The translations under genes were made by a program, and so were the position numbers. From contig LGRX02033462.1 in the NCBI GenBank assembly GCA_001247695.2, forward strand, positions 1 to 64,000: 64,000 nucleotides of DNA. Reading direction: 5' to 3'. Source of the stretch: Cymbomonas tetramitiformis (Eukaryota; Chlorophyta; Pyramimonadophyceae; Pyramimonadales; Pyramimonadaceae). Position 1 is the stretch's first letter. Each line of letters starts with the position of its first letter. Shown here piece by piece: positions 12,147 through 58,726 of this stretch. The notes below the pieces were generated by a model. The model saw nothing but the letters and a program-made list of their open reading frames with translations. It did no database searches and was not told the origin of the DNA.

Positions 12147-12156
12147 CCACCGTGGA

Positions 12157-12643
12157 CTTCTTGGGCTACCGCATCGGTCACAACACCATCGGTGCACAGG
12201 ACATCAAGTGCAAGGTCATCCAAGAGTTGCCCAAGCCCGAGGACAAGACTGGAGTGCGCTCCATTCTCGGGCTCATGAACTACTACGAGGGCTTGGTGGG
12301 TGAGCCCATGGGACCCAACTACTCAGAGATGGCTCGACCACTGAACGACTTGCTCAGGAAGGAAGTGGTGGACGTCAAGGAGGCTTGGGGGAAGGACCAG
12401 GACCGAGCGTTCCAAACACTCAAGGACGCTCTCTGCTCGGGGAGGTGTTTGAAGCCCATCGACTATGGCAAGCCCATCTTCCTCTACACGGACTGGAGCA
12501 ACCATGGCATTGGCGCAGTACTGGGCCAGAAGGATGAACAAGGCGTGGAGCACATCTGCGTGGTGATCAGCCGCTCACTGTCAAAAACTGAGAGACAGTA
12601 TTTGTATGCGAGCTTTCAGAGTGAGATGCTGGCAGTGGTGTAG
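12157..12643 (+). pseudogene. Ty3/gypsy RT C-terminus and RNase H, 3' part
   Basis: It continues the split element with DFLGYRI, RSILGLMNYY, then DYGKPIFLYTDWSNHGIGAV and SFQSEMLAVV. These are the end of the reverse transcriptase (thumb region) and the start of RNase H, with its Asp in TDWS. A TAG at 12641-12643 ends the frame where a Trp is usual. Beyond it no RNase H sequence is recognisable, so the element is truncated. Confidence 0.9.
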
Positions 12644-34736: not shown

Positions 34737-34910
34737 TGTAACACCCAACCGTACTTCCGTACCTCGTCACTAGCTATCTCGCTGTTATGACTACTTGCTA
34801 TATCGCTCTCGCGTATTGTGCTGCGCGCGTCACGTGTTCGTCACAGGGACTACTGTCCTAGGTGTCACAACCCGGCTGTGGTACACGACAAGCCGTGGTT
34901 TGTGACAGTA

Positions 34911-35835
34911 TGCGCACGTAGGCAAAAATGATTTTAATGGTAGTCTGCGCGTAAGAAAATGGTTTTAATGGGCATCTGACCGTAGGCAAATGAAAATAAT
35001 AGTGTGATATCCGTAGAAAGGCCGTGAACAAGCGGGATAGTGCAACGAGTGATGTGTTCGGTATACAACTATGTGCAGAACACAATACAAGTTTGCATAT
35101 CAATTCTTTGGTGTTTTAGGAAGAACATGCTTCTTGCGCGCGCAGGATCCGATCAGATTTTAGGAGTCTAGGCGCGGCGCGTTAGAGGGGGTGATTGGGC
35201 ATGCGTCGAGTCAGCGGCTCGACGCATGCCTAGCAAGGAAGCACAATAAACAGCATGAGCATATCACACATATTACACATGCATACTGGAAACATCATGA
35301 GCATCTGATAGTATACTGTCACCTCTCGCGGAAACGCGGATGTCAACTGCATTCACGTTTCCGTTAGGGTTCTTCCCTCATCCGAACGCTCGCTTGAAAG
35401 AGAGCCTGCGCATCAGATGAGAAAGGTGACAGTACAGATGCCCATAATGTTTCGAGTATGCATGTGTAATATGTGTGATATGTGCATGCTGTTTATTGTG
35501 CTTCCTTGCTAGGCATGCGTCGAGCCGCTGACTCGACGCATGCCCAATCACCCCCTCTAACGCGCCGCGTCCAGACTCCTAAAATCTGATCGGATCCTGC
35601 GCGCGCAAGAAGCATGTTCTTCCTAAAACACCAAAGAATTAATATGCAAACTTGTATTGTGTTCGGCACACAGTTGTATACCGAACACATCACTCGTTGC
35701 ACTATCCCGCTTGTTCACGGTCTTTCTACGGATGTCACACTGTTAAGTTCATTTGCCTGCGGGCAGATGACCATTAAAACCATTTTCTTACGCGCAGACT
35801 ACCATTAAAATCATTTTTGCCTACGCGCGCATATT
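34911..35835. repeat. Large foldback: two ~415-bp inverted arms around a 93-bp spacer
   Basis: The left arm (about 34911-35327) and right arm (about 35421-35835) are reverse complements with scattered differences. Shared phrases include GATCCGATCAGATTTTAGGA, GCATGCGTCGAG and CACAATAAACAGCATG. Within each arm GCATGCGTCGAG and CTCGACGCATGC form a further hairpin. The flanks hold degenerate ~36-bp units with GCCTACGCGCA and ATTAAAATCATTT. A transcript would form a long double-stranded RNA. No coding capacity. Confidence 0.9.
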
Positions 35836-38087: not shown

Positions 38088-39555
38088 CCTCGTCTAATTC
38101 ATTATTGTACAACATATTGAAAATCAACCCTGGCTTACCACAACGCACTTACCGCGTGTACCAAACACAGAGGCATCCTATAGTAGACACGGACAGCGAC
38201 GTACTCTTACTCTTACTTACTCTTCTCCCGGCGCGAACGGGGCCATTATTGTACAACATATACAAACGCCCGTTATCCCGATACATCTCCATAGGGGCTT
38301 GCGCAGTGAACATATCGAAACCTTTCATTTGATTTATTGTGTACACCGAAAACTCGAATCCGAATCACTTTCAACAACAAAAATGCATCTTCCAAACCTT
38401 TCGGAAGCCATTTCGGAAGCTACCAATACCAATTTTGGGCTTCAAAGAGACGAGAGCTAAAAAGACGCCCGCGCGAGCCCAAGATTATACCACATATAAC
38501 AGGGTGCTACCGCTGTAAATAATATGCACGCTACACTATTCATCATTGAGAACCGGTTATTGTCTGTGGCATCTTTATTGTGCAATGGGCCGCAATCCAT
38601 CAAACCTGGCCAATCCATTCCCCCATTTTCCCTCGGTATAGCATCAGTTTCATATCAATTGACTTTGGCATGTCATTAATTTCACATGTCATATTTCAGA
38701 GTCGTAAACATCTTCCCTCCGGGTGCACAGCCATGCTCAATGCTGTCAACAAATTATGGTGCTAAGAACTCTGATGCAAATACGGAATATGCATTCGCGG
38801 GCATTAGGGACACCACATTTTACTAATTGTTTATACAGCACTTGCACGGTACGACCTTCGGAAAGACTTGGTATTTTATATGCTTTAACAATACCGTTGT
38901 CTAATAAATATGGTTGTAAATATTCACCTTCTGACCTAATTCAATGCAGTGCTAAATACAAACAATGCCAACCAAATGAGCCGATGTGTGTAGTGCCTCG
39001 TCTTGAATCTGCTGACTTCATGAGGTCATCTTGCTCCAAGGCCGCCTCCAAGGCAACCACCACCGTCGGCGCAAGGGTTCGCTCAAGATGATGGGGACCC
39101 TATTCGGGTCTTTTCACATGGTGGTTTTCATCAGGTCGTACGTGCTATATTTGTCCTGGTATGCTTTGCCATCTCCCTATTTTCTGGGAATATCATGGCT
39201 TTATTCTAATGGCCCAAGTGATCAGCAAGAAATCTGCTATATTGGTATGCAAGACCTGGGGTTGATCCCACCGCCCTTGTAGCAGTTTTTTGTTCGCGAC
39301 AGCTTGTGTAGCTCCATCACCGCTTCAGCATCTGAGAGCATTGCCACTTCCACCTACACACCAACATGGACACATCACTTTGTCATTTAAACCAATGTAT
39401 ACCAAACAAATCTGGCCAAAGAAGCACGCCCACCTCACTCGAGATTGGCAGTGTCCACAGAAATCAAGCCAACAATAAGGCCCATGTTCGAGGAAACTGA
39501 CTGACGGGCTGTTGTGCACACGTTACGTAAGATAATCCAATATCATGTTCAATAT
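38088..39555. other. No recognisable gene
   Basis: Short frames only. The phrase ATTGTACAACATAT occurs twice (38103 and 38247). A TTACTC microsatellite lies at 38205-38225. Confidence 0.45.
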
Positions 39556-39725
39556 GTTTAAATTGGAGCACAGTGAAATTTTAGTGGTTTCTGCCATGTG
39601 TAGATCAAATGACCCATGTCATGCTTTGCAGCTCTAGTGACGGTTTGTGTCATGTGTAGTAGGCTCAGAAACTAGACAAAAAGCCCGTGAAGCTACATCG
39701 GCTTCAGCTCTATTCTTTTGCCTTC
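39556..39725 (+). repeat. Split direct repeat A1
   Basis: It begins GTTTAAATTGGAGCACAGTG and ends TCTTTTGCCTTC. It is repeated as A2 and bounds the element on the left. Confidence 0.9.
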
Positions 39726-39840
39726 GGTAAAAGAACTCCACGAAAATATTTCCTTCTGGGTTATTTTCTGTGCGGCACACTGTAAGTATTAAATCCCTTA
39801 CTCCTGTAGAAGTAAGCAATCCGGAATCGGCACCAGCACA

Positions 39841-40842
39841 ATGACTGGTAGCACAGACAGCCAGCAACCAGGGGACTCTGAGCCTACACCGCGTGGTGTA
39901 GGTACCCCTGGTGAGACTGTATCGCCTCCAGTACCTTCGTTGGAGGTGCAGCTGATACTTCAACAGATGAAGCACCAGCAAGAAGCCCACGATGCGGCGA
40001 TGAAGATCCAGCAAGCAGAGAGCAAGCAGCAAGACCTGCAAGCTCAGTTGCCGACGGAGCAAATCAGTGCTCTGCGGGCCGAAGCTGAGAAGGCTCGGTC
40101 CGCCAAGGAAGACGGCACATCGGCGACGACGTCGACTGGTGATGCAGAGCTCGAGAAGCTCAGACGTCTGCCTCACTGTCCCTACGCGACAGGGAATCCC
40201 TTTCCTCCGCGTCCGGACACTCTTCTTGACGCGATGCCCAAGCTGTTTGACCTCTACGGGGACAAGACACACGCGGCGTTGTGCAAGAAGTCGAACTCTT
40301 CGATGAAGTACGAGCAGATGGTACTGGGACCAGCACTCGCTTACTTCCACGACGCGATCGTCTACGAGGAGACAACTGTCGACCTACTGCAGAACCTGCC
40401 TCAAGCGGAGTACACCCCGTTCTTGGATGAGCTCTGGAACCGCGTGCTGCGGGGACACAACACCAAGAAGGGCGTCTACGGATTGTTGTGTAACCGCTAC
40501 ACCATGATCGGGTACAGGGCGATGCTTGAGGGAGACAACGAAGCTCACGGTGGAGCTGAAGTTGTACGGGCAAAGCTTGCCTTCATGGAGCAGAAGATTT
40601 ACGCGGGCACTGAAGGTGTGGTGGCGGACACGATCCTGACGAAGTGGCTAGCAGAGTTCGACGCTTCCAAGGCCAAGAACGTGATGACAGTGACGGCGAA
40701 GCTGGCAGCTGGAGCTGCGACCCGAGCACAACGTAGTGACCACCGCGTTGGAGGTGGTCGCGGAGGAGATCGAGCTCCTCCACCCAATTCCCCGGGTAAG
40801 GGCGGTAAGACCGCTAACTCCCGTGGGAAGGGGAAGGATTAA
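39841..40842 (+). CDS. Retroelement Gag-like protein
   Basis: ATG 39841 to TAA 40840-40842, 333 residues. Residues ~1-35 are Pro/Ser/Thr-rich, ~40-95 a Gln/Glu/Lys coiled-coil-like region, ~105-260 a globular part (FDLYGDKTHAALCKKSNSSM, GVYGLLCNRYTMIGYRAML) and ~290-333 a basic Gly/Arg tail (VGGGRGGDRAPPP) without a zinc knuckle. Position before RT and composition support a structural nucleic-acid-binding role. The TAA is followed at once, in the same frame, by ATG 40843 of the pol ORF, a spacing suited to stop-restart translation. Confidence 0.75.
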   Translation: MTGSTDSQQPGDSEPTPRGVGTPGETVSPPVPSLEVQLILQQMKHQQEAHDAAMKIQQAESKQQDLQAQLPTEQISALRAEAEKARSAKEDGTSATTSTGDAELEKLRRLPHCPYATGNPFPPRPDTLLDAMPKLFDLYGDKTHAALCKKSNSSMKYEQMVLGPALAYFHDAIVYEETTVDLLQNLPQAEYTPFLDELWNRVLRGHNTKKGVYGLLCNRYTMIGYRAMLEGDNEAHGGAEVVRAKLAFMEQKIYAGTEGVVADTILTKWLAEFDASKAKNVMTVTAKLAAGAATRAQRSDHRVGGGRGGDRAPPPNSPGKGGKTANSRGKGKD

Positions 40843-42362
40843 ATGTGCCTCGGGGCACCTGACCTAACCCCTCTCGCTCCGGGGGTTCAGGTAAAACAAC
40901 GTACGATACAGGAGTATGTACGTTCTCGCAAAGGAGCATGGCGCGCTGGAGGCGCGAGCAGCGAAGCACTGCGATGGATCGCTCGAGGAGCGAAGATGCG
41001 GTAGGTGAAAGGCCCACCACCCGACTTCGACCACGGGACCTCTCTGCGAGATCTGACGCAGCAGCAACAGGAGTGGTTGGACATCGAGACGGCCAGGTCT
41101 TTGCAAACTGGAGCATGGGTACGGGCACGCCGAAGACGCCACGTTTCGCGGGTGTTTCTGGTGCCCAAGCCAGGCACGAACTCTTGGAGATTGGTGATGG
41201 ACTTCCGGTGGCTGAACGAGTTCTGTGTGAAGTCCAAGTGCAAAATGGAGACCCTGAAGAAGCTGCGAAGGCTGGCGAGTCAGGGCGACTGGTGCTTCAC
41301 CTTCGATCTCAAGGACGGGTACCGCGCAGTGGGGATCAACCCGGACTTTCAGGAGTTCATGCAGTTCGACATCCAGGGGGTGTTGTACCAGTGCGGTGCA
41401 CTCCCCTTCGGGTGGACGGACTCACCACGAATCTTTGCCAAGTTGATGAAGACGCTCGTGGAGCTGATTCGCTCTCCGCAAGCGGGGGAGGATCAGCACG
41501 AAGTCAAGAAGCTGAGGGATGGACAAGAAGTACGACGACGCTGGGCGGTGAGGCGACGAGAAGGAGGGCTTCGACGAGGCTCGGACCGAGCAGGGGCGAG
41601 GGTGTTGCCCTACATGGACGACTTCATGGTGATCACCAAGACGTGATCGAGGTGGACTTCGAGGAGGGCTTATTCCGGGTGACGGAAAGAAGACTCAAGA
41701 AGATCCACTCCAAGGCTACAGCGATCCTCTGCCGAGCCACTCGAGAACAACGCTGGGTGCAAGCTCGAGAGCTGGCGGGGTTCAATGGACTCTGCCAGTC
41801 GGTGTACCTGGCTGTGCCAACAGCGAGGCTGTACCTACGCGAGCTGTACTTCGTGCTCAGCAAGAAGCACAGTTGGGGATCCAAGGTGAAGCTGACGAGG
41901 CAAGGCTGGGGAGGCCTACAATGGTGGGCCAAACTGCCGGCGACAAGCCAGTGGAATGGGCGCAAAATCTGGCGGAGTCCGACGAGGGCAAAGCTACACA
42001 CCGACTCCTCCCTGTTTTCGTGGGGAGGAGTGCTGAACCTGAAGAAGGAAGCACGCGGTTTCTGGAACGACGAGCTTTAGAAGCTGCACATCACCCACCT
42101 CGAGCTCGAAGCGGTCTACAAGACAGTCAGATCGTTCCTCTCCGAGCTAGAGGGGAAGGTAGTACGGCTGTACTGCGACAACCAGGCGGTGGTGGCGATG
42201 CTCTCGCACTTCACGTCACGAAACCCGGAGCTGATGCGACGTATGCAGAAGCTCTGGTTGCTCCTCGACTTACACGACATCGAGTTGCACGCGAGGTACA
42301 TCCGCAGCGAGGCCAACGAGTGGGCGGATCGGCTGTCACGAGACAAGGACCTCGACGACTAG
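40843..42362 (+). pseudogene. DIRS-type reverse transcriptase/RNase H with lesions
   Basis: The frame starts ATG at 40843. An in-frame TAG lies at 41002. The RT palm reads SWRLVMDFRWLNEFC, FTFDLKDGYRAVGINPDFQE (catalytic Asp), ALPFGWTDSPRIF and LPYMDDFMVI (YMDD). At about 41640 a stretch of roughly 30 codons seems deleted, since the frame changes and VDFEEGLFRVTERRLKKI follows directly. RNase H follows: HTDSSLFSWGGVL, a TAG at 42078-42080, then HITHLELEAVYKTV, RLYCDNQAVVAML and ARYIRSEANEWADRLS, ending with a TAG at 42360-42362. All three stops are TAG where CAG (Gln) fits. Confidence 0.85.
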
Positions 42363-43011
42363 AGGATCAACAAGAAGTGGTTCAAGTACGCCGAGGAGCA
42401 GTGGGGCGAGCACTCCGTGGACCGCTTCACCTCCGAGATCTCGGCCCAGCTGCCGAGGTACTACAGTGCCTGGCACGACCCGGGCTGCGAGGGGGTGGAC
42501 TCGCTGGCGTACGACTGGCGGGGGGAGCACAACTGGGTGAATCCTCCGTGGGGGCTACTCGACGAGGTGGCTCACATGCTGCGAGAAGAGAACGCAGCAG
42601 CGGCGGTGGCACCGTACTGGCCGGGGCAATCGTGGTTCCGAGAGCTGGAGGCGCTGGCTGCGGAGGTGGTGATCGTGCCCCGACGCAGGGACCTCTTCAC
42701 TCCCAGCAGGCTTGGACGAGCTGTTCGGAGCCTCCAGCTGGGACGCAATCTTGTTTCACATTCCCGGCTCCCAGTGAGCGTTCACTTGAGAGCGGGGGGT
42801 GTGGGGGCAGGACAAGGCGACGAGGAGATCAACAAGCCAGAAGAAGAGGTGACCCGGTTGCAAAATAGAGGTATTTTGGCCGGAGGACCAGGTGTGGTAC
42901 CCCGGGATCGTGGGTGCCACAGGTGAAGATGGAAGAACGAAGATCCAGTACGACGGTGACGAGGAGGACGTCGTGCTGAAGGAGGAGAAGTATCGAGTAC
43001 TTCCAAAATGA
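42363..43011 (+). pseudogene. Methyltransferase-like (NPPW) domain followed by Tudor-like domain
   Basis: After the TAG the same frame reads EHSVDRFTSEISAQLPRYYS, YDWRGEHNWVNPPWGLLDEV and AVAPYWPGQSWFRELEAL. This is the domain found between RNase H and recombinase in DIRS-order elements, with an NPPW motif like that of amino-methyltransferases. A shift of one frame near 42850-42862 leads to CKIEVFWPEDQVWYPG, GRTKIQYDGDEEDVVL and KEEKYRVLP, then TGA at 43009-43011. That 50-residue segment has the aromatic and acidic pattern of a Tudor-like chromatin reader. Whether the two are expressed together is unclear because of the frame change. Confidence 0.65.
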
Positions 43012-43123
43012 AGAAGAAGAAGATCCGCAGCAGCAGGTGACGGCGTCTCCGTGGAAGATTGTGCTGCTGAGACACTGGACGGAGAAGCTGGGGAACAACC
43101 AGCACTCCGACACAGCAGCAGCG

Positions 43124-44140
43124 ATGCAGGCAGCGGCGCTGGAGAAATCGACAGCCGACAACTACGAGAGGCACTGGAAGAAGTTCGTGAAGTTCTGCAC
43201 CGACGAGGACTTACGGTGGTTGCCGGCAACAGCAGCCACTGTGCAGCTTTACATGGCCGCCCTACAGGAAGCAGGTACGGTGAAGGGCACCTCCCTTCAG
43301 CCGTACTTGTCGGCCATCAACAGCTTCCACGAGGACTTCGGCTTCCCGGGACCAGCGAAGGGTCGGGCTGTCACACGTGCTGTGAAGGGCATGACAGCGA
43401 TGCAGACAGCGGCAGCGGAGCAGCAAAACGTCACGGAGACGATGAGAACTTTTCTGCCAGCTTCGGCAGTAAGGTGCGTACACAGAGCTGCTCTTCAGTT
43501 GCCTCTTGCGACTGAAGAACAACGGATACTCCTCCGTGCTTGTGTGTACGTAGTTGTGGCGTTTGTGACGTTTGGCAGACCGCAGACAGGCACGGCGATG
43601 CTGCGGGAGAGCTTGCTGAGGGACAGCAACGGACTCTCGATCGTGCTCGAGAAGGAGAAGGGCAAGAACCACCTCTTGTGTAAGAGGAGGCTCTGCATCC
43701 CACGGGAGGGGGTGGCAGAGCTGCACGAGCTGCTCGATCGGTGGGAGCAGACTCGGGATGAAGATTGGCTGCAGGCTGCTACGACGAGTACAGCAAAAGC
43801 AGCGGACACGGCCAACTACTGGAGGCTGCCGTGTGACAAGAAGAAGCAGTTCAGGAACGTTGATGCGAACGATTGGATTGCTTGTGCCTTGGGGCACGTG
43901 GGTTGTGTCCCTCCAGAAGGGGGGCATTACACAGCCTACAGCACCCGGAAGGGTGCCACTACATGCTCACGTGCAGTGGGAGTAGTGATGGAGAAGGTAT
44001 GCTTCTTCGGGGGGTGGGTGCAGCTGTCTTCGGCAGTACACGCCTACATCGACCCCACAGCAGTAGCAGACGCCGACATGGTCTACTACTTCGGGTGGCT
44101 AACACCGGGATGGCAGCAGACAGCAGCACCGATGGAGTAA
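43124..44140 (+). CDS. Tyrosine recombinase (phage-integrase fold)
   Basis: First ATG at 43124; the frame is open from further upstream. The N-terminal SAM-like core-binding part has STADNYERHWKKFVKFC and LQPYLSAINSFHEDFG. Catalytic candidates: Arg in FVTFGRPQTGTAML, Lys in LEKEKGKNH, SxxR in YSTRKGATT (the usual HxxR position), the Trp of FFGGWVQLS, and the nucleophilic Tyr in HAYIDP. It ends with TAA at 44138-44140, 29 bp before B1. It would integrate the circular cDNA in place of a DDE integrase. The frame is intact, unlike pol. Confidence 0.9.
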   Translation: MQAAALEKSTADNYERHWKKFVKFCTDEDLRWLPATAATVQLYMAALQEAGTVKGTSLQPYLSAINSFHEDFGFPGPAKGRAVTRAVKGMTAMQTAAAEQQNVTETMRTFLPASAVRCVHRAALQLPLATEEQRILLRACVYVVVAFVTFGRPQTGTAMLRESLLRDSNGLSIVLEKEKGKNHLLCKRRLCIPREGVAELHELLDRWEQTRDEDWLQAATTSTAKAADTANYWRLPCDKKKQFRNVDANDWIACALGHVGCVPPEGGHYTAYSTRKGATTCSRAVGVVMEKVCFFGGWVQLSSAVHAYIDPTAVADADMVYYFGWLTPGWQQTAAPME

Positions 44141-44169
44141 GAGAGTGCCAGCACATATCTCTGAAGACA

Positions 44170-44197
44170 TGGCAATGATCCGTGTGCAAAAGGAAAT
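44170..44197 (+). repeat. Split direct repeat B1
   Basis: TGGCAATGATCCGTGTGCAA then AAGGAAAT; identical to B2 and directly joined to A2. Confidence 0.9.
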
Positions 44198-44367
44198 GTT
44201 TAAATTGGAGCACAGTGGAATTCTAGTGGTTTCTGCCACGTGTAGATCAAATGACCCGTGTCATGCTTTGCAGCTCTAGTGACGGTTCGTGTCACGTGTA
44301 GTAGGCACAGAAACTAGACAAAAAACCCGTGAAGCTACATCGGCTTCAGCTCTGTTCTTTTGCCTTC
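44198..44367 (+). repeat. Split direct repeat A2
   Basis: A second 170-bp copy of A1. Confidence 0.9.
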
Positions 44368-47225: not shown

Positions 47226-47402
47226 TGAGTTGCAGGTTTGATACGTATAAATATCCACAGTGAGTTGCAGGTTTGATACGTATAAATATCCACAGTGAGT
47301 TGCAGGTTTGATACGTATAAATATCCACAGTGAGTTGCAGGTTTGATACGTGTAAATATCCACAGTGAGTTGCAGGTTTGATACGTGTAAAGATCCACAG
47401 TG
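47226..47402. repeat. 35-bp tandem repeat, five copies
   Basis: GAGTTGCAGGTTTGATACGT then ATAAATATCCACAGT, nearly perfect. Because 35 is not a multiple of three, the same peptide phrases cycle through all frames of the long minus ORF crossing it. Confidence 0.95.
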
Positions 47403-49548
47403 AGGGAGGGGCCCTTAGACTTGCACTTGCTAGGATTGTGAAATAAGTTTAACTGAAGACAATCTCGCTGATCCAGTCTACGATTTGAACTTGCAAGTGA
47501 TTCAGGCTGGAAATGAATTCGCTCGCTGAAAGGAGAACTTTTTGCAAGGCTAGGATAAAGACTTGGAACTGCATATGCAATTCGCTCGAGCAGTTCGTTC
47601 CGCTGAACCAAATACGTTGAAATATTTGAGTTCAGCAAAAGGTTTGTAGCGCACGTAAGGCAATTTCGTTCGTACCTTTTTGTGTGATATCGGTACATAG
47701 TGAGCATGGCCAAAGGAGTTGCGGCGGTCGAGCCACTCCGTCTGCCATCCAGCCTGCGGCACCCACCGTCACGGCAGCATCGCGACAATCCTTCGTCAGC
47801 GTCGATCTCCTCTTCGTTGAACAACTTTTTAACGTTGGACACTCGACTTCCGGAGCTGAGGACAAGAGGAGGGAGATGTCGGGTTCCAAACATTCTTACG
47901 CGCGCAGTATACGGTTTCACAGGACAGCACAGACTTTGAGGAACGGGTGAGAGTACTGCGGTGAAAAGTCTTATGTTCTTTTTTAGAAGAGTTGCGGAGC
48001 GAGAGAAAAAGTAGGTGAAAAGTATGGTGCTTATTTTGAGAGACGTGGAGTTAGAGAAAGCGAAGCCTCGACATGGCACTAGTCCCAACAAAGACAACTG
48101 CCACGCAGCATATAAGACGCCGCGCATCGTATCCGCTCGAGCAGGCTGGAGGCTCTTCGGGGAGAATATCAACTGGTATCGTATGCAACGCCGCCTTCCG
48201 TCTCAGGCAAGGTCCTCCACCAACAAAATACAGCATTTGAAACAGACACAAGGAAACTGGGTTGCGTCCTACCGCTGCATCTGTCTCGGAGTTGAACTGT
48301 GATGCGAGCTTCGTGTTCCACTGTTTGCTCTTCCTGCATATGGTGCCCCCTTGGAAAACAGCTGAAAACAGCATTGATAACTATGTCCAGCGTCACAGGA
48401 TTGAAATGCCTCCACTAAACTTGTATGACCGACTCTTCCTGGACTTGTGTTTACCACAGCGTTTGAAGGGTTATTTTCGGACGTTATGTGTCCAAACACG
48501 GAGAAGGCAGTCGCGGTTTGAAAGTGCTCGCTGGACGACAGGAAACACTGCCCAGTTTCCATCCGTGAAGGGCAATTGCAGCTGACAATAACGTGCAAGG
48601 ATGAATTCGCAAGGTTAGTGTGTGATTCTTGGATGCGAAGCTCCATGCACTGTCTGCAATCCACAGCAAGAATACGACCAACTTTTTAGGGCGTACGTTT
48701 TCTCACGATTCACCACCTCTCGCCAGCAGCTCACAGTTTTATCTCCCCAGCCTATGCTCGACATTTTCCTGCAAATAAAAACTGCAGTGTCTGAGAATAA
48801 GGTTAAAATAGGCATTCATACCGTGGCGAGCACATTGTGAGCAAAGGAGGTGAACGCTTCTATGTAAAGCTCTGGGCGAAATTCTCGCTCTATCACTATA
48901 GCAATGTCATTTCATTTCGGCATCATGGAGACAAGCCACCGCGAAATATCGTGAGGGATAAATTCAAAGTCGCGCGAGAGTTGAAAGGAAGCGTTCTGTA
49001 ACAAATCAGACACCAGTTCTGATCCACGTGCGTCACCCTGCGCACTAAAACACCGCGACGTTGCATTTCAATGTTCAGTGAAAGGAAACGAACAGAATAG
49101 TCACCTCGTTCAATGATAATTTGATAACTGTTGGGTTGCAATCGAGAGGGCTGCTGCAGAACGTGTTGGCAGGCTTACTCCTTCAGGCTCAAGAAACTCC
49201 CTACCTCGCTTGCTATAGAAACCAACGCAAGTTAAAATTAAACTTCTCTTGCTAGTTGCAACCGGTATCGTGTCACCTTCGTAGAGCCTACAGCTACAGC
49301 CTTGTCGTATGACTAGTTGTATGTAAATTTTAATTTAGTTACCATTTTATGTATGAGACCAGCAAGAGAAATTTAAAAAAACGTGGCCTGCGGATGCGTG
49401 CGGTGGGAGCAGGCGATGGGGACTGTAGGGGTGCCCATTGCCCAACTAAAGTTGAGCCGTCCAACGTTTTTAGATCGGGAACATCGGAAGGTCCGAAGAT
49501 ATTCCTGGGGAGCGACGAAGGAATGCATCGTATTTTGATCTCTGGAAT
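47403..49548. other. No recognisable gene
   Basis: A 72-codon plus frame (48622) starts with a Cys-containing phrase (LGCEAPCTVCNPQQEYD), but no family can be named. A minus frame through 48172-47420 is open by chance or is an old relic. Confidence 0.4.
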
Positions 49549-50232
49549 TGTGCCAGGGGCACGACGACAGATGCTCGGAGATATGTTTTTGATTGAACGT
49601 GCAAAGGTACACAATTCGGATTTTTATAATATACTGGATCAGGGCCAGATTGAGGTACAAACGATAATTCGGTTCCGAGTTCTGAAGGCTAAACACTTCT
49701 CAAGTGCTCTACTTATTCACTCGTCACTCAGGTTGCAGGGTCAACCACTCGAGAGCCGATGTCACACTTCGGCTCAACGTTCAGTTCCCGATCCGATCTC
49801 ATTTCTAATTCCGATTCGTCATTCTCGATTCAGATGTTATGCCGACAGGCTGACACGATGACTGCCCCACAGTACTGTCATACTACTGTACTGTCATACT
49901 GTCATACTGTCATAGCGTCATACTGTCATACTGTCATACCTTAATATCTGATATTCGATTTCATTGTCTTTTCAACCCCGATGCGAATCTGACCATTCTT
50001 CGAGGGTCTGACTGAGTTCCACGATGACACCCCCCACAGTACTGTCATACTACTATAGTGTCATACTGTCATACTGTCATAGTGTCATACTGTCATACCC
50101 CGGACATCTGGTATTCATTCTCATCGTGATTTCAAGCCCAATTTCACTGTCATCGTGCCAATCCCAGATTACCCCCGATGACACACATACGGACGCATAG
50201 GCATATCGGCTCACGCTGTGCCTCCGGGCACA
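49549..50232 (-). repeat. 3' LTR (684 bp)
   Basis: It contains 9-bp ACTGTCATA arrays at about 49870-49940 and 50035-50100. It matches the 5' LTR almost base for base. Confidence 0.95.
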
Positions 50233-50247
50233 ACTCTCCCCCCCTTA
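50233..50247 (-). other. Polypurine tract
   Basis: On the minus strand AAGGGGGGGAGAGT directly precedes the 3' LTR; it primes plus-strand DNA synthesis. Confidence 0.85.
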
Positions 50248-50420
50248 GGAGTGGTCTACCTCCTGGGATCACTCCGCTAAGGTACCCATCTAAGTTCCAG
50301 TTCTTAGGTTTTCTGGTTCCTTGCTGTTTCCAGTTCTTAGGTTCTCTGGTTCCTCTTCGAGCATAGTTTGCCTGCCGCTACCAGGGCACCACTTTCAAGA
50401 AGAAGGGTGCCACTTGGAAT

Positions 50421-52738
50421 CTAAAGCGGGTCTTCAGTGTCGCGGAGGCGTAAATGTCGGAAAAGTTGACGTAGCAGGAGTGCTGGCACGGGATATACAC
50501 TCGCGGATCGACCTGCTCCAGTCTGCTGCGGGTGAGGTCCAAGCTGAGCAGTCTCTGGATGAGCACCGGTTGCCCATCTGCACGCACACGGTGTTGAAGT
50601 AGTACAGCGTAGCAGGGGCGAGGGTGGTGCTGAGTTCGTCCATATGCAGGTGGGTTTCATGTATTGCGTACCGTACATGCAATAGGTACACACCAGCGGT
50701 GGGGGAAGCTGGCGCATCATAGGGCGAAGCCGTAGCGCGTTAGGGAAGCGACCTCTGGGGTTTTCCATGAACCAATGTTTTGGCTCCAGGTAGTCAATGA
50801 TCTGCAATGCTCGTCGTACGATTTTGTCAGCCTGGGGAAGGTCAGGGGGTCCACCAGTGGTGCGCGCTTGACTGTACTGCCTGCAGGGGGGACTTGCCCA
50901 AACAACATCGAAGAATCCAGGCGGGTATTGTCTGTAGTCCCATTGTAGGATGTCACACACATGAGTGGGTTGCCAGATATGCCCGGAGTCGAGGGTCACT
51001 ACTGAGGCGGAGGGGAAGCAATTCAGGAATTCCCTCTCTACTGAGCCAGTACCGCTGAAAAGTACGAGAATCCTGGGCGTGCGGGTTGTTTTTGTCTGTA
51101 TTGCCAGCAGCTCTGTCACCAGTGCCAGCGACCCATCTTCCACGCGCTCTTGGCGTTCCCACGGCAGGGGGATATCATCTTCCATCTGTTCGAGCTGGTC
51201 CAGTTCATCGCAGGGATTAGTGATGAGGTGGGCCAGTGTCATTCCGGCTTGAGCGGAGTGGCGGCCACGCTGCTCGCGTCGCCGAGTGGCTTCGTCGCGG
51301 ACTTGCGCTTCCATGTGCAGTCTCGCTTGCTCGAATTCACGAAGTTGTTGAAGTGGACTTCCGCGTTCAAGTTTGTCACGCGTCCTCCATTGGTCGTGAG
51401 CTTTGGAGTAGCCAGTCCAGCGAACCTTCCACTCTTCCACCTCCTTTCCTCGAACAGACCGCACTCGACGTGCAAGGATGCGCTCAACGTGTGCTTCCTT
51501 CTGACCGTCCACTACCACTTCTTCAGGTACTGCTAGGTGATCGCGTGCGGCAAAAGCATCTTGACCGCTGGTGTACGGTTTGAGGCGATGTTGAGCGAAG
51601 ACGTCGTGAATCCGCCAGTGAGGAGGGAGGCGTAGGCGGTAGGCTACTGGGGCTCCTCTGTCGGCCTCTGGCATGGTCATCTGTACATCGCTGAAGAAGC
51701 GTTCGGTCACAGGAACTGGTCCATGCCAGCGCTTGGTCAGTTTCCTACAGATGGAGCGATCCATCACCTTCTCCGTAAGGTGTTTCGCCTCTATCCAGAC
51801 CAGATCCCCAACAGCATACTCCCGCTGCCCGTGTCTGCGATCAAACTGTTCGCGCTGTCGCTGTTGAGCCAGCTCTAACCGCTGTCTGGCGTCCCGCAGC
51901 TGCGACGAAAATTTCACAGCCACTTCGTGTGCGGTGCCTACTCCCCCAGTTCGTCGTCCAGCGGTGGACTGTGCGGCCTCCAGGAAAAGGTCCAACTGCG
52001 ACAGCGGCGAGAACCCGAACACCAGTTCAAACGGCGTGAAGCCAGTAGATTCACTCCTGGAGTCATTGATCGCGAACTCCACGTTAGTGGTGAACAGATC
52101 CCAGTCCTCCACATTGGCGTCTACAAAGGACCTGAGCATGTCCTCAATAACCCTGTTGCTGTGTTCCGCCTGGCCGTCAGACCGAGGGTTGTACGGCGTG
52201 GTACGAGCCACTTTCACACCCATCAGTCTCATGAGTTCCTGCCAGAAAGCATCTTGAAACCGCGGGTCACGATCAGAGACAATCTTCATAGGCGCGCCAT
52301 GTAAGCGCCACACCGAGTCAAAGTAGATTCTGGCCACCACAGCTGCGGAGCTGTCGCCGAAGTTCATCGGCACAACGTGGACCATCTTCGTCAGCTTGCA
52401 GGTGAAGGCCACGAAAGCATCATTGCCCCTCTCTGATACCGGCAGGCCGGTGACGAAGTCCACCGCGACATCCTGCCATGGCCTGTTCGGGATGCTGTGA
52501 GGGTTTAGCAACCCATCCGGGTAAGTTCCCCGCGGCCTCACTGATTGGCACACTGCGCAGGATGCAACCCAAGTGCCCACATCTTCCGCGGCACCACGCC
52601 AATAGAAGCGTCGCAGCACCCTCTCCAGAGTCTTGTCTCGCCCAGTGTGACCCGAGGACAATGACTCATGAGCATGACGAATCACCACTTCTCGAAGTGG
52701 AGAGTCCTCCCCCAGCACCAACTGATATCTCCCTAGCA
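50421..52738 (-). CDS. Integrase, chromodomain and C5-cytosine DNA methyltransferase fusion
   Basis: An open frame of 772 codons without an ATG at its start (it opens after a TGA near 52750). Residues ~22-64: HHCC zinc-binding (CAVC at 61-64). ~85-240: DDE integrase core with Asp94 (AVDFVTGLP), Asp156 (SDRDPRF) and Glu192 (DGQAEHSNR), D35E spacing. ~300-390: C-terminal region (VGDLVWIEA). ~410-470: chromodomain (AHVERILARRV, EWKVRWTGYS, HDQW). ~555-765: C5 methyltransferase with motif I ILVLFSGTGSVEREF, catalytic Cys619 in WASPPCRQYSQAR, ENP motif MENPRG (659-661), KPTCIWTN, and a final SVYPVPALLLRQLFRHL helix. The frame is +1 relative to Gag, overlapping its end. The RT region is missing at the junction. 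The methyltransferase looks complete. Confidence 0.9.
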
Positions 52739-55578
52739 ACTTCCCGAATCTTCAACAAGGCGTTGTGGGTGCCTGGGATGTCGTCAGCGACAGCCTTCCT
52801 CTCCCACTCTTCTGGTTTGGAGACATCCAAGTGGATGGCTCTCAGGCGCCGCATCACCTTGGGTGCATATTTCAGCCCCCGGCGGTACGTAGAGAGCATC
52901 GACAAGTTGGTCATCTCTACGCAATTTGGGACTCTGCCGGCCAAGAAGTTGACGGAGGCCATGCGGGTCTCCAGTCGCGAGAAATACTCCGCCGCGGTCT
53001 CGTTCACCGCCTGCTTCAGGGCAATGGCCTCGCCGTGTGCGTTCTCCAGGTAGGCCTGCGTCAAAGAGCACACTGCCAGATCGCTGAAGAACACGTCCAG
53101 CTCCCCGTAGCGTTGGTGCCAAGCTTGCTCGGACCCAAAGGTCCCCGCCGCGCGCTCCAAGAACTTTCTCTGCTGGTCTTGAAGAGTGTACTCCTTGAAG
53201 CTCCAAAGAAGGCTTGACACACTTGCCTGGTACTCTGATACCGATGGCGTGCAACTGGGAGTGGTCAGTGCTTCGATCACGATGGCCTCCTGGAATACCT
53301 TCCGTACCATGTGGGAGTAGTGCTCCAACTGCGTCAGGAGGCCCTCCTTGTCGGCCGATTTTGTGTCGGACGCGGAGCGGGGGAACCTGGTGACGCTCTT
53401 GACCAGCTTTAGCACCATCTCTTTGGTCTTGTGCTCCAGGCGGACCTCGTCTGGAGATGCTCGCAGGTTAGTGCCCTGCGGCAGACGGACGATGCCTGGA
53501 ACAAAGGGGGTGGCGCTGGGAGAGAGCACGGGGTTCGCAGCGGCGGCAGAGTGAACGGGGTTCGCGGCAGCGGCAGAGTGAACGGGGTTTGCGGCGGCGG
53601 AATGGGGAAAACGGGCAGGAGGTGGTGGTCCCGGGGCATGCGCGGGCGGAGGCGCAGGCGCGGGATTTGTGGGGACTGCGGTCGGAGTGGGCGGTAATGT
53701 AGGGGCTGATGGTGGTGCGGGGAGTGGGAGAGGTGTATGGAAGGGCAGGGGTGTGGATGGTTGTGCGGCCACCACGCTCATGCTCCGGTACCAATCGGAG
53801 TTGCTGACCTCCGACCACGCGGCGAGCCCGTCCTGATCGAAGTTCTGCATCTCCGACTCCCGCGCAGTAGCAGGGATCCACTCCCATACTGGCTGCCCCA
53901 TGCTGGTAGACCGCACATTGGCCGCGGCTGGGTCCCCCATTGCCATATCCATGACCTCGCGGTCGACCATGAGGACCCAGGTCTCCACACGAGGGTTGGT
54001 AAGGGGTAGGGGTGCATGGTGTAGCCGGCCCCCCATGCGCGCATATGCAGTCAGCGGCGCTCCCAGCAGGTGCATGATCCTGAACAAGATGGCGTCGCCC
54101 TGCACCCCAGCCCGGCGGCGTTCGTCCCATGGTAGGGAGACGGTTGCCGCGCCTCGCACCCCAGCTGACTGGTGCACCCACAATGACCCACCATCGTGGG
54201 TGACGAAGAGGGCTCTGACCTCTGGGTACTGAGGGTAGGAGGGCTCTGGTGCGGGATCGTCAGGGGGATCCTGAGGTGGATCACTAGGGGGGCCTGGTGG
54301 CGAGTCGCTTGAACTGGAGTCTCTGGGCTCTGAGTCGGGATTGCCACCGCCGTGCACCACCGTCTCCATCGACTGCCGCCGGCGGGCCACCATCATGTTA
54401 TGGGGATTTGGCCGGCCCTGAGTGGGAGGTTCGGCGGGAGCGGTCTCAGCGGCGGTCTGAGGCACTGGAGGGGTTACGCTGGCGGCAGCGTCTGCCTCGT
54501 GTAGATGGTCCGCCGTCAGGCCCTGTGCGCTGCCCTGAGGGTCGCCTGGTGGGGAGACTCCTGCCGATGTCGTCGCACCAGGCAGCGCGAGTCCTCTCGA
54601 GAGCACCGCGGAGATGTCCAGGGCCTGTACTGCCGCTAGGACTTCTCTGCGAATGTGTTCACTTCGGCTGCTCGCGTCCGAGTCAGAGCCGGACCTGTGG
54701 GCGGCCCTCCGCCTGCGCTCAGCCCGTGCCTGCGTGCTTCGGCTGCCTCTGGTCCCCGTGCTGGTGCGGCTGATGTCCGTGCCGGAGTCGGGGTCAGAGT
54801 GATCAGGTGCGTGGCTTGGGCCTGGAAGATGCTTGCCATGTGTCGCAGGGCCCGAAGATGCCCTTCGGGAACGCCGACGCCGGCGAGTCTCTGAGGTTGT
54901 CGCCACCGCGGGAAGGTGACGCACCAAGAGCTGGGTACCGCCCAAGACGTTCTGCTGAACCCCGCTGTCAAGGGGTACCTGCAGAGGGTCCGGCAGGGCC
55001 GCGGCGCCGATGCTGATGAAGTGCTGCAGCGATGAGGGATCCGCGCCTGAGTCATGAAGCGCGGAGGTGGCTGGTGCCAGCTGATGGGGCTGCTGTGGTT
55101 GCTGCTGCTGCTGCTGCTGCTGTTGCTGCTGTAACTGCTGCTGTTGTAACTGCTGCTGCTGTAACTGCTGCTGCATCGGTTCCAGTGGCTGCTGCTGAAG
55201 CCACTGCTGTTGCTGCTGCTGGTACGCGAGCCACTGCTGCTGCTGCTGTAGCTGTTGTTGGAACGGTGTGGGATATGCGCCCACGGGGTGATGGGTTCCC
55301 AGTGTGAACGGCACTGGTGATACTCCCCCAGCGAGGGGCGCTGATTGGGGCAATACCCAATTGACGCCGTTCCATACAGCCTGTGCGGGGGTGCCATCCG
55401 GCATAGTATAAGGGCGGGGCACCGCTGTGTAGGGCATGGTGGTGCCTGGATGTGGAATGGGGTGAGCGGAAGCGTAAGCGGCGGGCGATGGGAAGGTGAG
55501 GGGCGAGAACAATGGGGGGCGTGACGGCTCTGCACTGACCCCCATGCTGGGAAAGGACTCTGATATATGTTGCGACAT
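52666..55578 (-). CDS. Gag polyprotein with polyglutamine region
   Basis: First ATG at 55578 (MSQHISESFPSMG); about 970 residues to a stop at 52666. The order is: Pro/Ala-rich start, a long Gln-rich tract from CAG/CTG repeats (55080-55260), Arg/Ser-rich stretches (RRRRSRRASSG), Pro-rich linkers, an Ala-Asn-Pro-Val-His-Ser repeat (about 53520-53600), then a C-terminal capsid-like domain (KEMVLKLVKSVTRFPRS, ETAAEYFSRLETRM, MLSTYRRGLKYAPKVMRRL). No zinc knuckle is seen, perhaps because it lay in the deleted segment. The last ~25 residues after KIREVAREI come from reading integrase DNA out of frame, which marks the deletion junction at about 52720-52750. Confidence 0.8.
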   Translation of the reverse strand: MSQHISESFPSMGVSAEPSRPPLFSPLTFPSPAAYASAHPIPHPGTTMPYTAVPRPYTMPDGTPAQAVWNGVNWVLPQSAPLAGGVSPVPFTLGTHHPVGAYPTPFQQQLQQQQQWLAYQQQQQQWLQQQPLEPMQQQLQQQQLQQQQLQQQQQQQQQQQPQQPHQLAPATSALHDSGADPSSLQHFISIGAAALPDPLQVPLDSGVQQNVLGGTQLLVRHLPAVATTSETRRRRRSRRASSGPATHGKHLPGPSHAPDHSDPDSGTDISRTSTGTRGSRSTQARAERRRRAAHRSGSDSDASSRSEHIRREVLAAVQALDISAVLSRGLALPGATTSAGVSPPGDPQGSAQGLTADHLHEADAAASVTPPVPQTAAETAPAEPPTQGRPNPHNMMVARRRQSMETVVHGGGNPDSEPRDSSSSDSPPGPPSDPPQDPPDDPAPEPSYPQYPEVRALFVTHDGGSLWVHQSAGVRGAATVSLPWDERRRAGVQGDAILFRIMHLLGAPLTAYARMGGRLHHAPLPLTNPRVETWVLMVDREVMDMAMGDPAAANVRSTSMGQPVWEWIPATARESEMQNFDQDGLAAWSEVSNSDWYRSMSVVAAQPSTPLPFHTPLPLPAPPSAPTLPPTPTAVPTNPAPAPPPAHAPGPPPPARFPHSAAANPVHSAAAANPVHSAAAANPVLSPSATPFVPGIVRLPQGTNLRASPDEVRLEHKTKEMVLKLVKSVTRFPRSASDTKSADKEGLLTQLEHYSHMVRKVFQEAIVIEALTTPSCTPSVSEYQASVSSLLWSFKEYTLQDQQRKFLERAAGTFGSEQAWHQRYGELDVFFSDLAVCSLTQAYLENAHGEAIALKQAVNETAAEYFSRLETRMASVNFLAGRVPNCVEMTNLSMLSTYRRGLKYAPKVMRRLRAIHLDVSKPEEWERKAVADDIPGTHNALLKIREVAREISVGAGGGLSTSRSGDSSCS
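55080..55265. repeat. CAG/CTG trinucleotide-rich tract
   Basis: Interrupted CTG repeats on the plus strand encode the Gag polyglutamine region on the minus strand. Confidence 0.9.
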
Positions 55579-57585
55579 ACTGGCTGCTGAGCTGATCAGA
55601 TCGCACGCTGGGTGTGGCAAAAGCCACAGGTGAGCAGAAGGTAGGAAGTGCTCGCCTTTTATTTATTCAGTGTCGCTTTCGTGAGGGGGGGAAGGAGGAG
55701 GTGAAGGTGTAGGGCTGACTTCTGGAGACGGTGGAGCGTCGGCCAAGGTTTCACCAGGAAGCACCGGTATTGCTGGGTGGTAAGGGTCCGGGTAATTGAA
55801 GACGAAAACCGTGAACCCCTGGTAGTACCACTCACGGTTTGGCACTGGCCAGGATTTTTCAAAATTTGATTAAAAATTTGGGCGAGTTTTTGGCCTGAAA
55901 AAAATTTCAAAATTTGATCAAAATTTGGGTGCGTTCTTCAAAATAAGTCAAAATTTGATTAGAAGATGTAAAAAAATAGAATAAAAATATGGGCGGGATA
56001 TCGAATATGTCTCCGCGATCGCGATGGCTGCTGTCATTCCCATACTTTACACGTCGACGTGAGACGTGACACAGACGGATACCGCATTACCACCGCAATT
56101 CAAGTTCTGATCTTCTCATCAAGTATCTTCAAGGCAGTCAAATTGTGAAAGTGAGGCCATCCGTTGAGAGTTCTCAGCATTCGGAATGCCTGTCCTATCT
56201 CTCGTAGCAGAGAGGATTTCGATGGTGAAACAGGCTTGCGCCCTGTCCACCTGCATTGCCCTTGTTGCCCTTGCACCGACAAGCAAGGTAGCCCCTCCAA
56301 ACCTCAATTGTGATGCCTAAGCAAAACCTATTGCGTGTCGTAGTCTCAGAACCGGTTTGATTAGTCTTGAAACCTGTTATCGATCATATTTCATATAGGT
56401 TTTACAGGTCTGAAGGTTGCCAATAAGTTGCCGCCAAGCTGAACAAAGTAGTATGAAATAGGTTCTTAGGCCAATTTGGGTGATTGCAAAAGAAATAGGG
56501 GCCTAGGGCAAGCGTCTCCGCGTCTCAGCGAACCGGTTTGGGCGTGTATGGGGCCCGCGAGATCGGCTAATTATTAAAAAAAAATTAGGAAAATTTTAGG
56601 GGCCTTTTCAAAAAGGGAGGAAAAATTTAGGTGACTTTAGGAAAAATTTCAAAAAAAAATTTGGGTCAATTTAAAAAAAATGTGGGCCAGAGCCAACTCA
56701 CGGTAGTGGCGCGCTGGTGGGATAGCCAGGGTGTATGCTGTCCAGGCGCTTGCTGGTGGGTAGGTAGGGTCTGGAGGGAATACCCACTTGACAGGTCCTT
56801 GCTTCCACCACGCTCTTCTGTATTCTTCTGGCGAAGGGGGTACTGCCATACACCGGCGAACTCAAAATTTCGCCAGGGCTCCGCGACACAGATTTCAAGT
56901 GCCTATGTATGCAGGCAGGGGTCAAGAAACTGCAACCAGAAAGCTCAGCAAGGTCCCAGAAGGTAACCGGACTTCGTACACTCCCAAAATATTCCAGCCA
57001 GAGGGTAAACCAGAGGTGTCCAGAAACTGTCCAGGAACTGTCCAGAAGCCACTAAAAGCGCTGTTTTGAGGGGCTTTCCCAGCTGCTGGTGGCCGTGAGG
57101 GCGGTATTGAGGGGTTCTAGGGTGTCCTATGGGGTCTGGGGAAGGAGTTTTTGGTGGTGGGGGCTACTGTGGAAGGTTTCGGGGTAGGCTGAAAACGGGC
57201 TAAAACGGCTATTTTGGGCTGTTTTTGGCTGTTTTTCGCCTTTTTAAGGCTCTAGAAAGTGAGTTATGAGGTTTTCCTGGCTACTATAAACCGGGGAAAC
57301 CCTTTAGGGTGCTCCCTGACGGTTGTTTGTAGCCTGGGGCAGACTTGGAGTTTAAGATCGGAAAACGAATGTTGACTTTTCTGAGCCTGGTTGGGCCCCC
57401 AGTGTTAAGGGGCGAAAATATGAAGTTTTGGAGATGTTTTCCAAAGGATACGGCCGTTGTATACGAAAAAAAATGTACTTACGGAGGCTAAAATTGCGCC
57501 CAGATAGCCGGAAGTGCAGCTCTCCCCCTGTATCACAACGGAAGTTTCAAAAGGCCCGTGGGCGAGTTGCGCAGAGGCGAAATCG
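55579..57585 (-). other. 5' leader of the LTR element
   Basis: About 2 kb between the primer site and the Gag ATG. It has no conserved coding motif. It includes A/T-rich AAAATTT and AAATTTGG repeats at 55850-55960 and again at 56570-56690. A long structured leader with packaging signals is usual in such elements. Confidence 0.6.
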
Positions 57586-57601
57586 CAGCACGCTGATACC
57601 A
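57586..57601 (-). other. Primer binding site (initiator tRNA-Met type)
   Basis: On the minus strand TGGTATCAGCGTGCTG starts two bases after the 5' LTR. The first ten bases match the complement of the plant initiator tRNA-Met 3' end, the commonest primer of plant LTR elements. Confidence 0.8.
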
Positions 57602-57603
57602 AA

Positions 57604-58296
57604 TGTGCCAGGGGCACGACGACAGATGCTCGGAGATATGTTTTTGATTGAACGTGCAAAGGTACACAATTCGGATTTTTATAATATACTGGATCAGGGC
57701 CAGATTGAGGTACAAACGATAATTCGGTTCCGAGTTCTGAAGGCTAAACACTTCTCAAGTGCTCTACTTATTCACTCGTCACTCAGGTTGCAGGGTCAAC
57801 CACTCGAGAGCCGATGTCACACTTCGGCTCAACGTTCAGTTCCCGATCCGATCTCATTTCTAATTCCGATTCGTCATTCTCGATTCAGATGTTATGCCGA
57901 CAGGCTGACACGATGACTGCCCCACAGTACTGTCATACTACTGTACTGTCATACTGTCATACTGTCATAGCGTCATACTGTCATACTGTCATAACCTTAA
58001 TATCTGATATTCGATTTCATTGTCTTTTCAACCCCGATGCGAATCTGACCATTCTTCGAGGGTCTGACTGAGTTCCACGATGACACCCCCCACAGTACTG
58101 TCATACTACTATAGTGTCATACTGTCATACTGTCATAGTGTCATAGTGTCATACTGTCATACCCCGGACATCTGGTATTCATTCTCATCGTGATTTCAAG
58201 CCCAATTTCACTGTCATCGTGCCAATCCCAGATTACCCCCGATGACACACATACGGACGCATAGGCATATCGGCTCACGCTGTGCCTCCGGGCACA
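57604..58296 (-). repeat. 5' LTR (693 bp)
   Basis: It differs from the 3' LTR by one extra GTCATAGT-type unit and one added A; otherwise identical by eye. Confidence 0.95.
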
Positions 58297-58726
58297 GGAA
58301 TCGTACATGGACTGTCAGATTCGGAAAATTGCCACTGTTAAAAATTAACGGACCAGTTTAAGGCGCATTATTTACCGAGTGTGAGCGAGCGACGGTCTGG
58401 ACCAGGGATGACATAGTATTGGTGGTGACATTAGAGAGGTTCCGCAAAGTGGGCGGAGAACTAACAACGAATAACAAATAAGGGAATCTTCGGTCATAAA
58501 TTCCGTCCACGTCGACATATGACAGTTCCTTACTTCTCCCCAGTTCTTATCTCTCCGCTTAGTTCTCTCCTTATCTCTCCGCCCTCCGGAGAAATAAGAA
58601 ATGTGGAGAACTAAGGGAATCTTTTCCGATTGAGTACCTCACTGCCGCAGATTTTAATTTTCGATTCATCTTACGGTAGATCGGATCGTTTCAACCTGTT
58701 CGCTCTACAACACAGCTTTCCTTTGC

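Follow-up and report, generated by a model that had tools for sequence, protein, structure and literature searches.

The 64,000-nucleotide stretch of the Cymbomonas tetramitiformis genome analyzed here (GenBank assembly GCA_001247695.2, contig LGRX02033462.1, positions 1 to 64,000; hereafter the window) contains a long terminal repeat (LTR) retrotransposon on its minus strand, delimited by a 5-bp target site duplication (TSD; Table 1). Its two LTRs differ by two gaps (8 bases and 1 base), with no substitutions in 684 aligned bases, indicating a recent insertion. A putative primer binding site, which we take to resemble the 3' end of the initiator tRNA-Met, and a putative polypurine tract occupy the positions expected for an LTR element. 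The pol remnant encodes an integrase followed by a chromodomain, which is the layout of chromodomain-type Ty3/Gypsy elements. The C-terminal domain of this Ty3/Gypsy-type Pol is, by its sequence and fold, a C5-cytosine methyltransferase (MT), with catalysis being predicted. Its position directly behind the chromodomain in a single frame, proposed by an initial annotation of the window, is borne out by profile, motifs, and fold, by hundreds of genomic copies, and by relatives in metagenomes.

Table 1. Features of the retrotransposon and of a second, DIRS-like element in the window (ORF, open reading frame; RT, reverse transcriptase; aa, amino acids).
Feature	Position	Strand	Basis or remark
LTR retrotransposon	49549-58296	minus	LTRs, TG...CA ends, 5-bp TSD
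TSD left, GGAAT	49544..49548	.	
TSD right, GGAAT	58297..58301	.	
3' LTR, TGTGCC...GGCACA	49549..50232	minus	self-BLAST
5' LTR	57604..58296	minus	self-BLAST
Putative primer binding site, TGGTATCAG	57593..57601	minus	two bases past 5' LTR
Putative polypurine tract, AAGGGGGGGAGAGT	50233..50246	minus	immediately ahead of 3' LTR
Gag-like ORF, 998 aa stop to stop	52666..55662	minus	truncated by deletion ahead of CCHC knuckle
Internal deletion junction, gag joined out of frame to integrase	52712..52750	minus	
pol remnant ORF, 776 aa (integrase, chromodomain, C5 MT)	50421..52751	minus	
Integrase zinc-binding domain, PF17921	52530..52703	minus	Pfam 1.8e-17
Integrase core, PF00665	52185..52484	minus	Pfam 3.2e-5, below curated cut-off
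SH3_Tf2-1 segment, PF24626	51573..51653	minus	Pfam 6.4e-9
Chromodomain, PF00385 (residues 421-474)	51330..51491	minus	Pfam 4.8e-7
C5-cytosine DNA methyltransferase domain (residues 556-776)	50424..51086	minus	profile, motifs, fold
Motif I, LFSGTGSVE	51036..51062	minus	
Motif IV, PPC (catalytic cysteine, residue 623)	50883..50891	minus	
Motif VI, ENP	50757..50765	minus	
Motif VIII-like block, KPTCIWTN	50634..50657	minus	
DIRS-like element: RT, PF00078	41005-41643	plus	1.8e-12
DIRS-like element: Dam-like domain, PF05869	42363-42923	plus	1.8e-4, below cut-off
DIRS-like element: tyrosine-recombinase-like frame, Phage_int_SAM_1	42980-44140	plus	8.8e-8

The pol frame (50421-52751) contains the motif I, catalytic PPC, ENP, and KPTxIWTN blocks named in the initial annotation, and the profile comparison with DNA methyltransferase families proposed there places the MT part alone above the cut-off of PF00145 (23.1 vs. 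22 bits). The whole pol product of the window scores slightly lower than this cut-off (20.8 bits). Three of nine relatives scanned (P0001, P0011, and P0012) exceed it and the other six fall below, as do the metagenome proteins P0154 and P0158 and the annotated Cymbomonas protein CYMTET_16929 (P0170). An AlphaFold model of the MT (pLDDT 90) has structural matches to M.HaeIII, DNMT3, and M.HhaI; M.HaeIII tops the Foldseek search and DNMT3A the VIA search. As regards the target recognition domain and motifs IX-X, the VIA alignment with DNMT3A, which covers 205 of 275 residues, reaches residue 911-912, and no classical motif X was identified. PPC, ENP, and most columns of motif I are invariant in the window sequence and in nine relatives with identities as low as 51%, and PPC and ENP are invariant also in an alignment of 56 hand-picked rows that includes stand-alone enzymes; P0054, which lies outside this alignment, has PEC in place of PPC. 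An identity of the window domain as adenine methyltransferase, taken from labels of PF05869, is excluded; the PF05869 matches fall upstream of the integrase.

The structural matches also bear on the substrate of the enzyme. In the manner of DNMT2, the MT might modify RNA (that of the element or its primer tRNA) rather than DNA, and the search of the PDB with a profile is indeed topped by tRNA (cytosine-38) methyltransferase (1.9e-6) and DNMT2 (3.5e-6), with DNMT1 at 6e-4. LTR elements use tRNA primers, and RNA methylation has been raised by de Mendoza et al. for an enzyme borne by a long interspersed nuclear element (LINE; available text of PMC5890265). However, DNA enzymes head the fold searches, the 50 matches listed for each of Foldseek and VIA include no DNMT2 chain, and the stand-alone relatives in phages and other viral contigs are annotated as DNA methylases wherever they are annotated, which makes RNA a rather improbable substrate.

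Although the initial annotation correctly recognized an LTR element with an MT, it overlooked that part of the window copy is deleted and that a second methyltransferase domain, of the Dam type, is present in intact copies. By comparison with one full copy, about 5.85 kb comprising the end of gag, the protease, the RT, and RNase H are absent. The gag-like ORF of the window has no Pfam match at E values up to 0.1; it shares 91.9% identity over 430 columns with the gag part of CYMTET_16929, which places the latter in the subfamily of the window. In another, full copy, the gag frame has 1,158 aa and runs past the deletion point of the window to the CCHC knuckle. A 39-mer covering the deletion junction has a single exact match in the 852-Mb Cymbomonas tetramitiformis assembly, which is the window itself. 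This looks like a private deletion; a propagating subfamily without RT is unsupported.

The family as a whole is of the Ty3/Gypsy type, bears a chromodomain, and is both young and high in copy number in Cymbomonas tetramitiformis. The window pol was searched against the entire assembly (851.7 Mb, 25,745 contigs), and the best 58 of 17,843 first-look candidates were scored; all 58 are 99-100% identical and free of internal stops, and 20 of them have ORFs of 2,515-2,536 aa. A 38-base pattern of the catalytic site (up to two mismatches) has 915 matches in the assembly and a 40-base chromodomain pattern 1,070, with no match for either reversed control. The span from integrase to MT is covered in all 58 best-scored places, excluding an artifact or chimera of a single contig; the presence of the chromodomain–MT fusion also in metagenome proteins argues in the same direction. 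High copy number probably has an independent sign in the first Cymbomonas genome (modal coverage, 19-21×), in which chromodomain-, RNase H-, and cytosine DNA methyltransferase-like regions were reported on three of the four scaffolds covered more than 10,000× (Burns et al. 2015; available text of PMC5741210). These over-represented scaffolds are probably the present family, although neither an element, nor a fusion protein, nor a single scaffold with all three regions is described in that text.

Four full copies, selected for their 2,536-aa frames, encode protease, RT, RNase H, the NPPY motif of the Dam-type domain, integrase, chromodomain, and the C5 motifs in this order, whereas CCHC sits in their gag frame; the TSD of a second copy is ATTTC. 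In the three of these copies in which the gag-end anchor was located (C6282, C20804, and C3487; L100-L102, L106, L108, and L110), gag and pol share the same frame and are separated by a single TGA (GAA TGA CTG), suggesting that Pol may be produced by stop-codon readthrough. The same order of Pol domains is present in CYMTET_16929 and in two proteins from metagenome contigs, P0154 (2,077 aa) and P0158 (1,846 aa), where protease, RT, RNase H, Dam-type domain, integrase, chromodomain, and C5 MT follow each other in one frame. In the annotated Cymbomonas proteins P0008, P0009, P0010, and P0011, the C terminus of the MT switches frame past CMY; the switch likely reflects false introns in the gene models, which would hide the full MT in database proteins.

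The second METHYLTRANSFERASE domain of the intact Pol is of the Dam type (PF05869, NPPY) and is located between RNase H and integrase. Among the nine relatives scanned, PF05869 scores above its cut-off upstream of the integrase in P0022, P0006, P0001, P0011, and P0017 (the best match, 3e-12, being that between RNase H and integrase of P0022), below it in P0018, and has no match in P0004, P0012, and P0015. It exceeds its cut-off also in P0154, P0158, and P0170, in which PF00145 stays slightly below its own. NPPY and C5 motif IV occur together in 7 of 26 further proteins with a Dam region, the others ending earlier or representing cut gene models; CNPPYN is retained in 16 of 17 genome copies and gapped in the other. 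The VIA list for a 1,032-residue model is occupied by matches to the C5 domain, and the Dam profile has one match among PDB sequences, a deoxyhypusine synthase (E 0.25).

Conservation among genomic copies was assessed in two samples. The first comprises 40 places taken in list order from exact matches of the catalytic-site 38-mer. Because this word spans the PPC codons, the presence of the cysteine in 40 of 40 places is circular and was set aside; the choice by an exact word also tilts the sample towards young copies. ENP is retained in 39 of these copies, with one EKP. The second, independent sample comprises 20 places picked without regard to the MT, namely, the first in list order among the matches of the chromodomain 40-mer that had not been sampled previously, and leans towards copies that lack the exact MT word. 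Nineteen of the 20 places match, and all 19 that are readable retain the codon of the catalytic cysteine, as TGC or TGT; the loss of this residue from all genomic relatives, which the initial annotation had envisaged as evidence to the contrary, is not observed. Of these places, 16 have a complete PPC, one has LPC, and two are gapped at the first codon of the motif; ENP is complete in 17 of the 18 that cover it (one ETP). Both motifs are present in all 13 loci (12 copies) selected through their protein match or the length of their frame.

The C5 MT and the Dam-type domain are both under purifying selection, albeit less tight than that on RT and integrase. Variants were counted for each copy against one reference copy, using only codons with one difference; those present in at least two copies were considered shared, and ratios are nonsynonymous to synonymous per site. 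After 7 of the 40 copies were dropped (less than 95% identity or fewer than 2,200 aligned bases), 33 were used, 26 of which have an open MT domain. Their shared variants (synonymous/nonsynonymous) amount to 33/6 in the MT (ratio 0.059; unchanged at 0.060 without fixed codons), 67/3 in the integrase (0.014), 9/2 in the chromodomain (0.067), and 11/5 in the linker of this half of Pol (0.148). In the other half, which is represented by 17 loci after the removal of 6 from a set of 23, the counts are 21/5 for the Dam-type domain (0.065), 20/1 for RT (0.015), 22/0 for RNase H, and 29/18 for the linker (0.201). Unique variants over all 40 copies give ratios of 0.23 for the MT and 0.55 for the integrase, which are inflated by poor alignments. 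Between P0154 and P0158, identity is 66% in the Dam-type domain and 65% in the MT, compared with 70% in RT, 77% in the integrase core, and 21-26% in the linkers. That selection keeps the MT domain indicates that it does something for the element.

By sequence, the MT is a member of a viral and metagenomic family of short C5 enzymes, which often stand alone. A profile of ten element MTs, scored against the 7,996 candidates that had the most words in common with it, matched at least 1,633 proteins. The 120 matches listed include many stand-alone enzymes with a length of about 205-215 aa; seven of the 120 have a chromodomain ahead of the MT, five of these being only distant kin of the window family. 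Two scans of IMG/VR yielded at least 533 and at least 579 relatives among the 600 pattern matches listed in each. While DNMT3 heads the VIA list, the nearest relatives in sequence are short stand-alone enzymes from metagenomes and viruses. In a tree of 68 rows hand-picked from the listed matches, without P0069 and P0087 (no motif by pattern), a third phage region, and Dnmt3 rows, 15 near element MTs form a clade with two algal proteins (support 99/95), and the five distant chromodomain–MT rows group together (82/87). A close phage origin of the MT is disfavored: a clade apart (100/100) unites five of the six phage or IMG/VR rows, and the sixth (L004) forms a solitary, very long branch.

Among viral proteins, the best match in fold is the putative cytosine DNA methyltransferase encoded by Tetraselmis virus 1 (BFVD A0A2P0VN45); the name suggests that this virus infects a green alga. 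The protein has the same short C5 fold as the MT (38% identity; TM-score, 0.80/0.87) but is a stand-alone viral product of 218 aa. Gain of the MT from a giant virus is plausible and unproven, a lead rather than a result, because the 30-row group that contains the element enzymes is weakly supported in the tree (82/80). The frequency of this MT family in viral contigs also invites a restriction-like or antiviral interpretation, in which modification would protect the DNA of the element or the cell in a conflict between alga and virus. Cymbomonas is rich in endogenous viral elements (available text of PMC10675990), and an antiviral role has been proposed for retrotransposon methylases (available text of PMC6338049); we nevertheless regard this role as very improbable.

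As stated in the initial annotation, retrotransposon-borne methyltransferases are known from charophytes and dinoflagellates: C5 enzymes occur in the Pol of a Klebsormidium Gypsy element and in DIRS and LINE elements of dinoflagellates (de Mendoza et al. 2018; available text of PMC5890265, also for the following comparisons). KnitGypsy-Dnmt3 of Klebsormidium nitens resembles the Cymbomonas element in having a C5 MT with key residues and under purifying selection within a green-algal Gypsy Pol. However, it carries a eukaryotic Dnmt3 domain, whereas the Cymbomonas element combines a short, viral-type C5 domain behind a chromodomain with a Dam-type domain; the available text names neither a chromodomain nor a second methyltransferase for KnitGypsy-Dnmt3. 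SymbioDIRS-Dnmt3 and SymbioLINE-Dnmt are likewise high-copy, retrotransposon-borne C5 methyltransferases but reside in tyrosine-recombinase DIRS elements and LINEs, with Dnmt3-like or orphan enzymes; those of SymbioDIRS methylate CG in yeast. DNMT3 has been recorded also in LTR Copia and DIRS elements by a 2025 survey (available text of PMC12344493).

DIRS1-like retrotransposons share with the Cymbomonas element a methyltransferase domain in Pol past RNase H, but they use a tyrosine recombinase, and the structure described in the available text includes neither a C5 domain nor a DDE integrase (PMC3266345); their methyltransferase domains are termed Dam-like in the available texts of PMC5890265 and PMC6338049. 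The window itself contains a DIRS-like element (39554-44367, plus strand; direct repeats at 39554-39725 and 44196-44367), which is possibly its second methyltransferase-bearing retroelement. Chlamyvir-related chromodomain Ty3/Gypsy elements have been reported from Cymbomonas (Gyaltshen et al. 2023; PMC10675990), and the terms "methyltransferase", "methylase", and "Dam" do not occur in the available main text on the chromoviral pol genes of this alga. In the open-licence literature, covered mostly at the level of titles and abstracts, neither a retrotransposon fusion of chromodomain and C5 MT nor a Pol with two methyltransferases was found described. Whereas a C5 MT in a Gypsy Pol is already known, the fusion with a chromodomain and the second, Dam-type domain are apparently new.

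We favor, with modest confidence, the reading that the C5 MT travels in the Pol of this young Ty3/Gypsy family and marks either the cDNA of the element or the DNA at its target site. The enzyme would travel together with RT and integrase and would methylate the element's own double-stranded cDNA in the particle; alternatively, it would methylate the DNA where integrase and chromodomain bind. A new insertion would then arrive pre-marked, resembling host DNA or silent host chromatin, and the Dam-type domain would add, or may once have added, a second mark. The location of the MT beside integrase and chromodomain fits an action at cDNA or target. That the fusion tethers the MT to chosen chromatin, as suggested by the initial annotation, can be fairly inferred provided that the domains stay joined after processing of the polyprotein.

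Several observations weigh against the marking of cDNA or target DNA. The window copy, with protease, RT, and RNase H deleted, cannot reverse-transcribe, and the 770-codon part is free of frameshifts, stops, and large gaps in only 17 of the 40 sampled copies. CpG is undepleted in the LTRs (observed/expected, 0.97-0.98) and outside the element (0.98; whole window, 0.95), which leaves no plain trace of 5-methylcytosine (5mC) decay there; the mildly low value in the interior of the element (0.79; gag 0.76, pol 0.86) could be explained by codon use or older decay, so that the CpG values neither prove nor exclude methylation. The Gypsy-borne DNMT of K. nitens, the only one of its kind tested, produced no methylation in yeast, a result that its authors considered inconclusive (available text of PMC5890265). 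Moreover, NPPY is absent in P0162, P0018, and P0004 (SLSS, SPPS, or a gap in its place), while the remaining Dam domain is conserved, which suggests that some members of the family may have lost Dam catalysis. Constraint on private variants is weaker in the MT (32/27, ratio 0.275) than in the integrase (66/35, 0.167); the linker has 7/8 (0.373).

The last two observations, together with a C5 domain that is shorter than classical enzymes, would also fit a noncatalytic function of the C5 and Dam-type domains, in DNA binding or in the structure of Pol. This is difficult to reconcile with the retention of Cys 623 in 19 of 19 readable independent places and of ENP in 39 of 40 and 17 of 18 copies, and with the invariance of PPC and ENP in the ten element sequences and the hand-picked 56-row alignment (with PEC in the outlying P0054); we consider a purely noncatalytic role quite unlikely. 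Somewhat less unlikely, but still improbable, is that the MT attenuates the element by promoting methylation and silencing of new copies, so that host damage is reduced and both partners are favored. Attenuation is among the explanations offered for known DNMT retrotransposons (available text of PMC5890265), and transcripts of the over-represented scaffolds of Cymbomonas are near the genome-wide median, which was read as tight regulation (available text of PMC5741210). By contrast, the 915 matches of the catalytic 38-mer and the substitution-free LTRs of the window are unlike strong self-restraint, yet compatible with it.

If the marking of cDNA or insertion sites is extended to both methyltransferase domains, Pol might be a two-base DNA-marking machine that unites RT, integrase, chromodomain, and writers of N6-methyladenine (6mA) and 5mC. 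The element would stamp A and C on each cDNA or insertion site, and its C5 writer, derived in this view from a giant virus of algae or a relative of one, would be physically attached to the site-choosing integrase–chromodomain. We offer this scheme as a tentative possibility and are inclined to doubt it.

Other repeats in the window include a tandem repeat (47226-47404) with units of about 35 bp (GAGTTGCAGGTTTGATACGTATAAATATCCACAGT), pairs of which are 97-99% alike, and a large inverted repeat (34909-35833) that pairs with itself over 941 columns at 89% identity. Two RT-like stretches (12149-12601 and 26579-27016), with 24-34% identity to Pol relatives, probably represent other retroelements.

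Retrotransposons are usually the targets of DNA methylation; in this family, selection keeps a C5 MT and a second methyltransferase domain in Pol. If active, the MT would represent a further case of enzyme capture and would join a chromatin reader, an integrase, and a writer of DNA marks in a single protein. With at least 20 nearly full-length ORFs among its hundreds of copies, and a host alga that is in culture and has been read by nanopore sequencing, the benefit of methylation to the element is testable. This includes the questions of whether young copies carry 5mC or 6mA, whether the marks spread from the insertion, and whether they help or restrain transposition.

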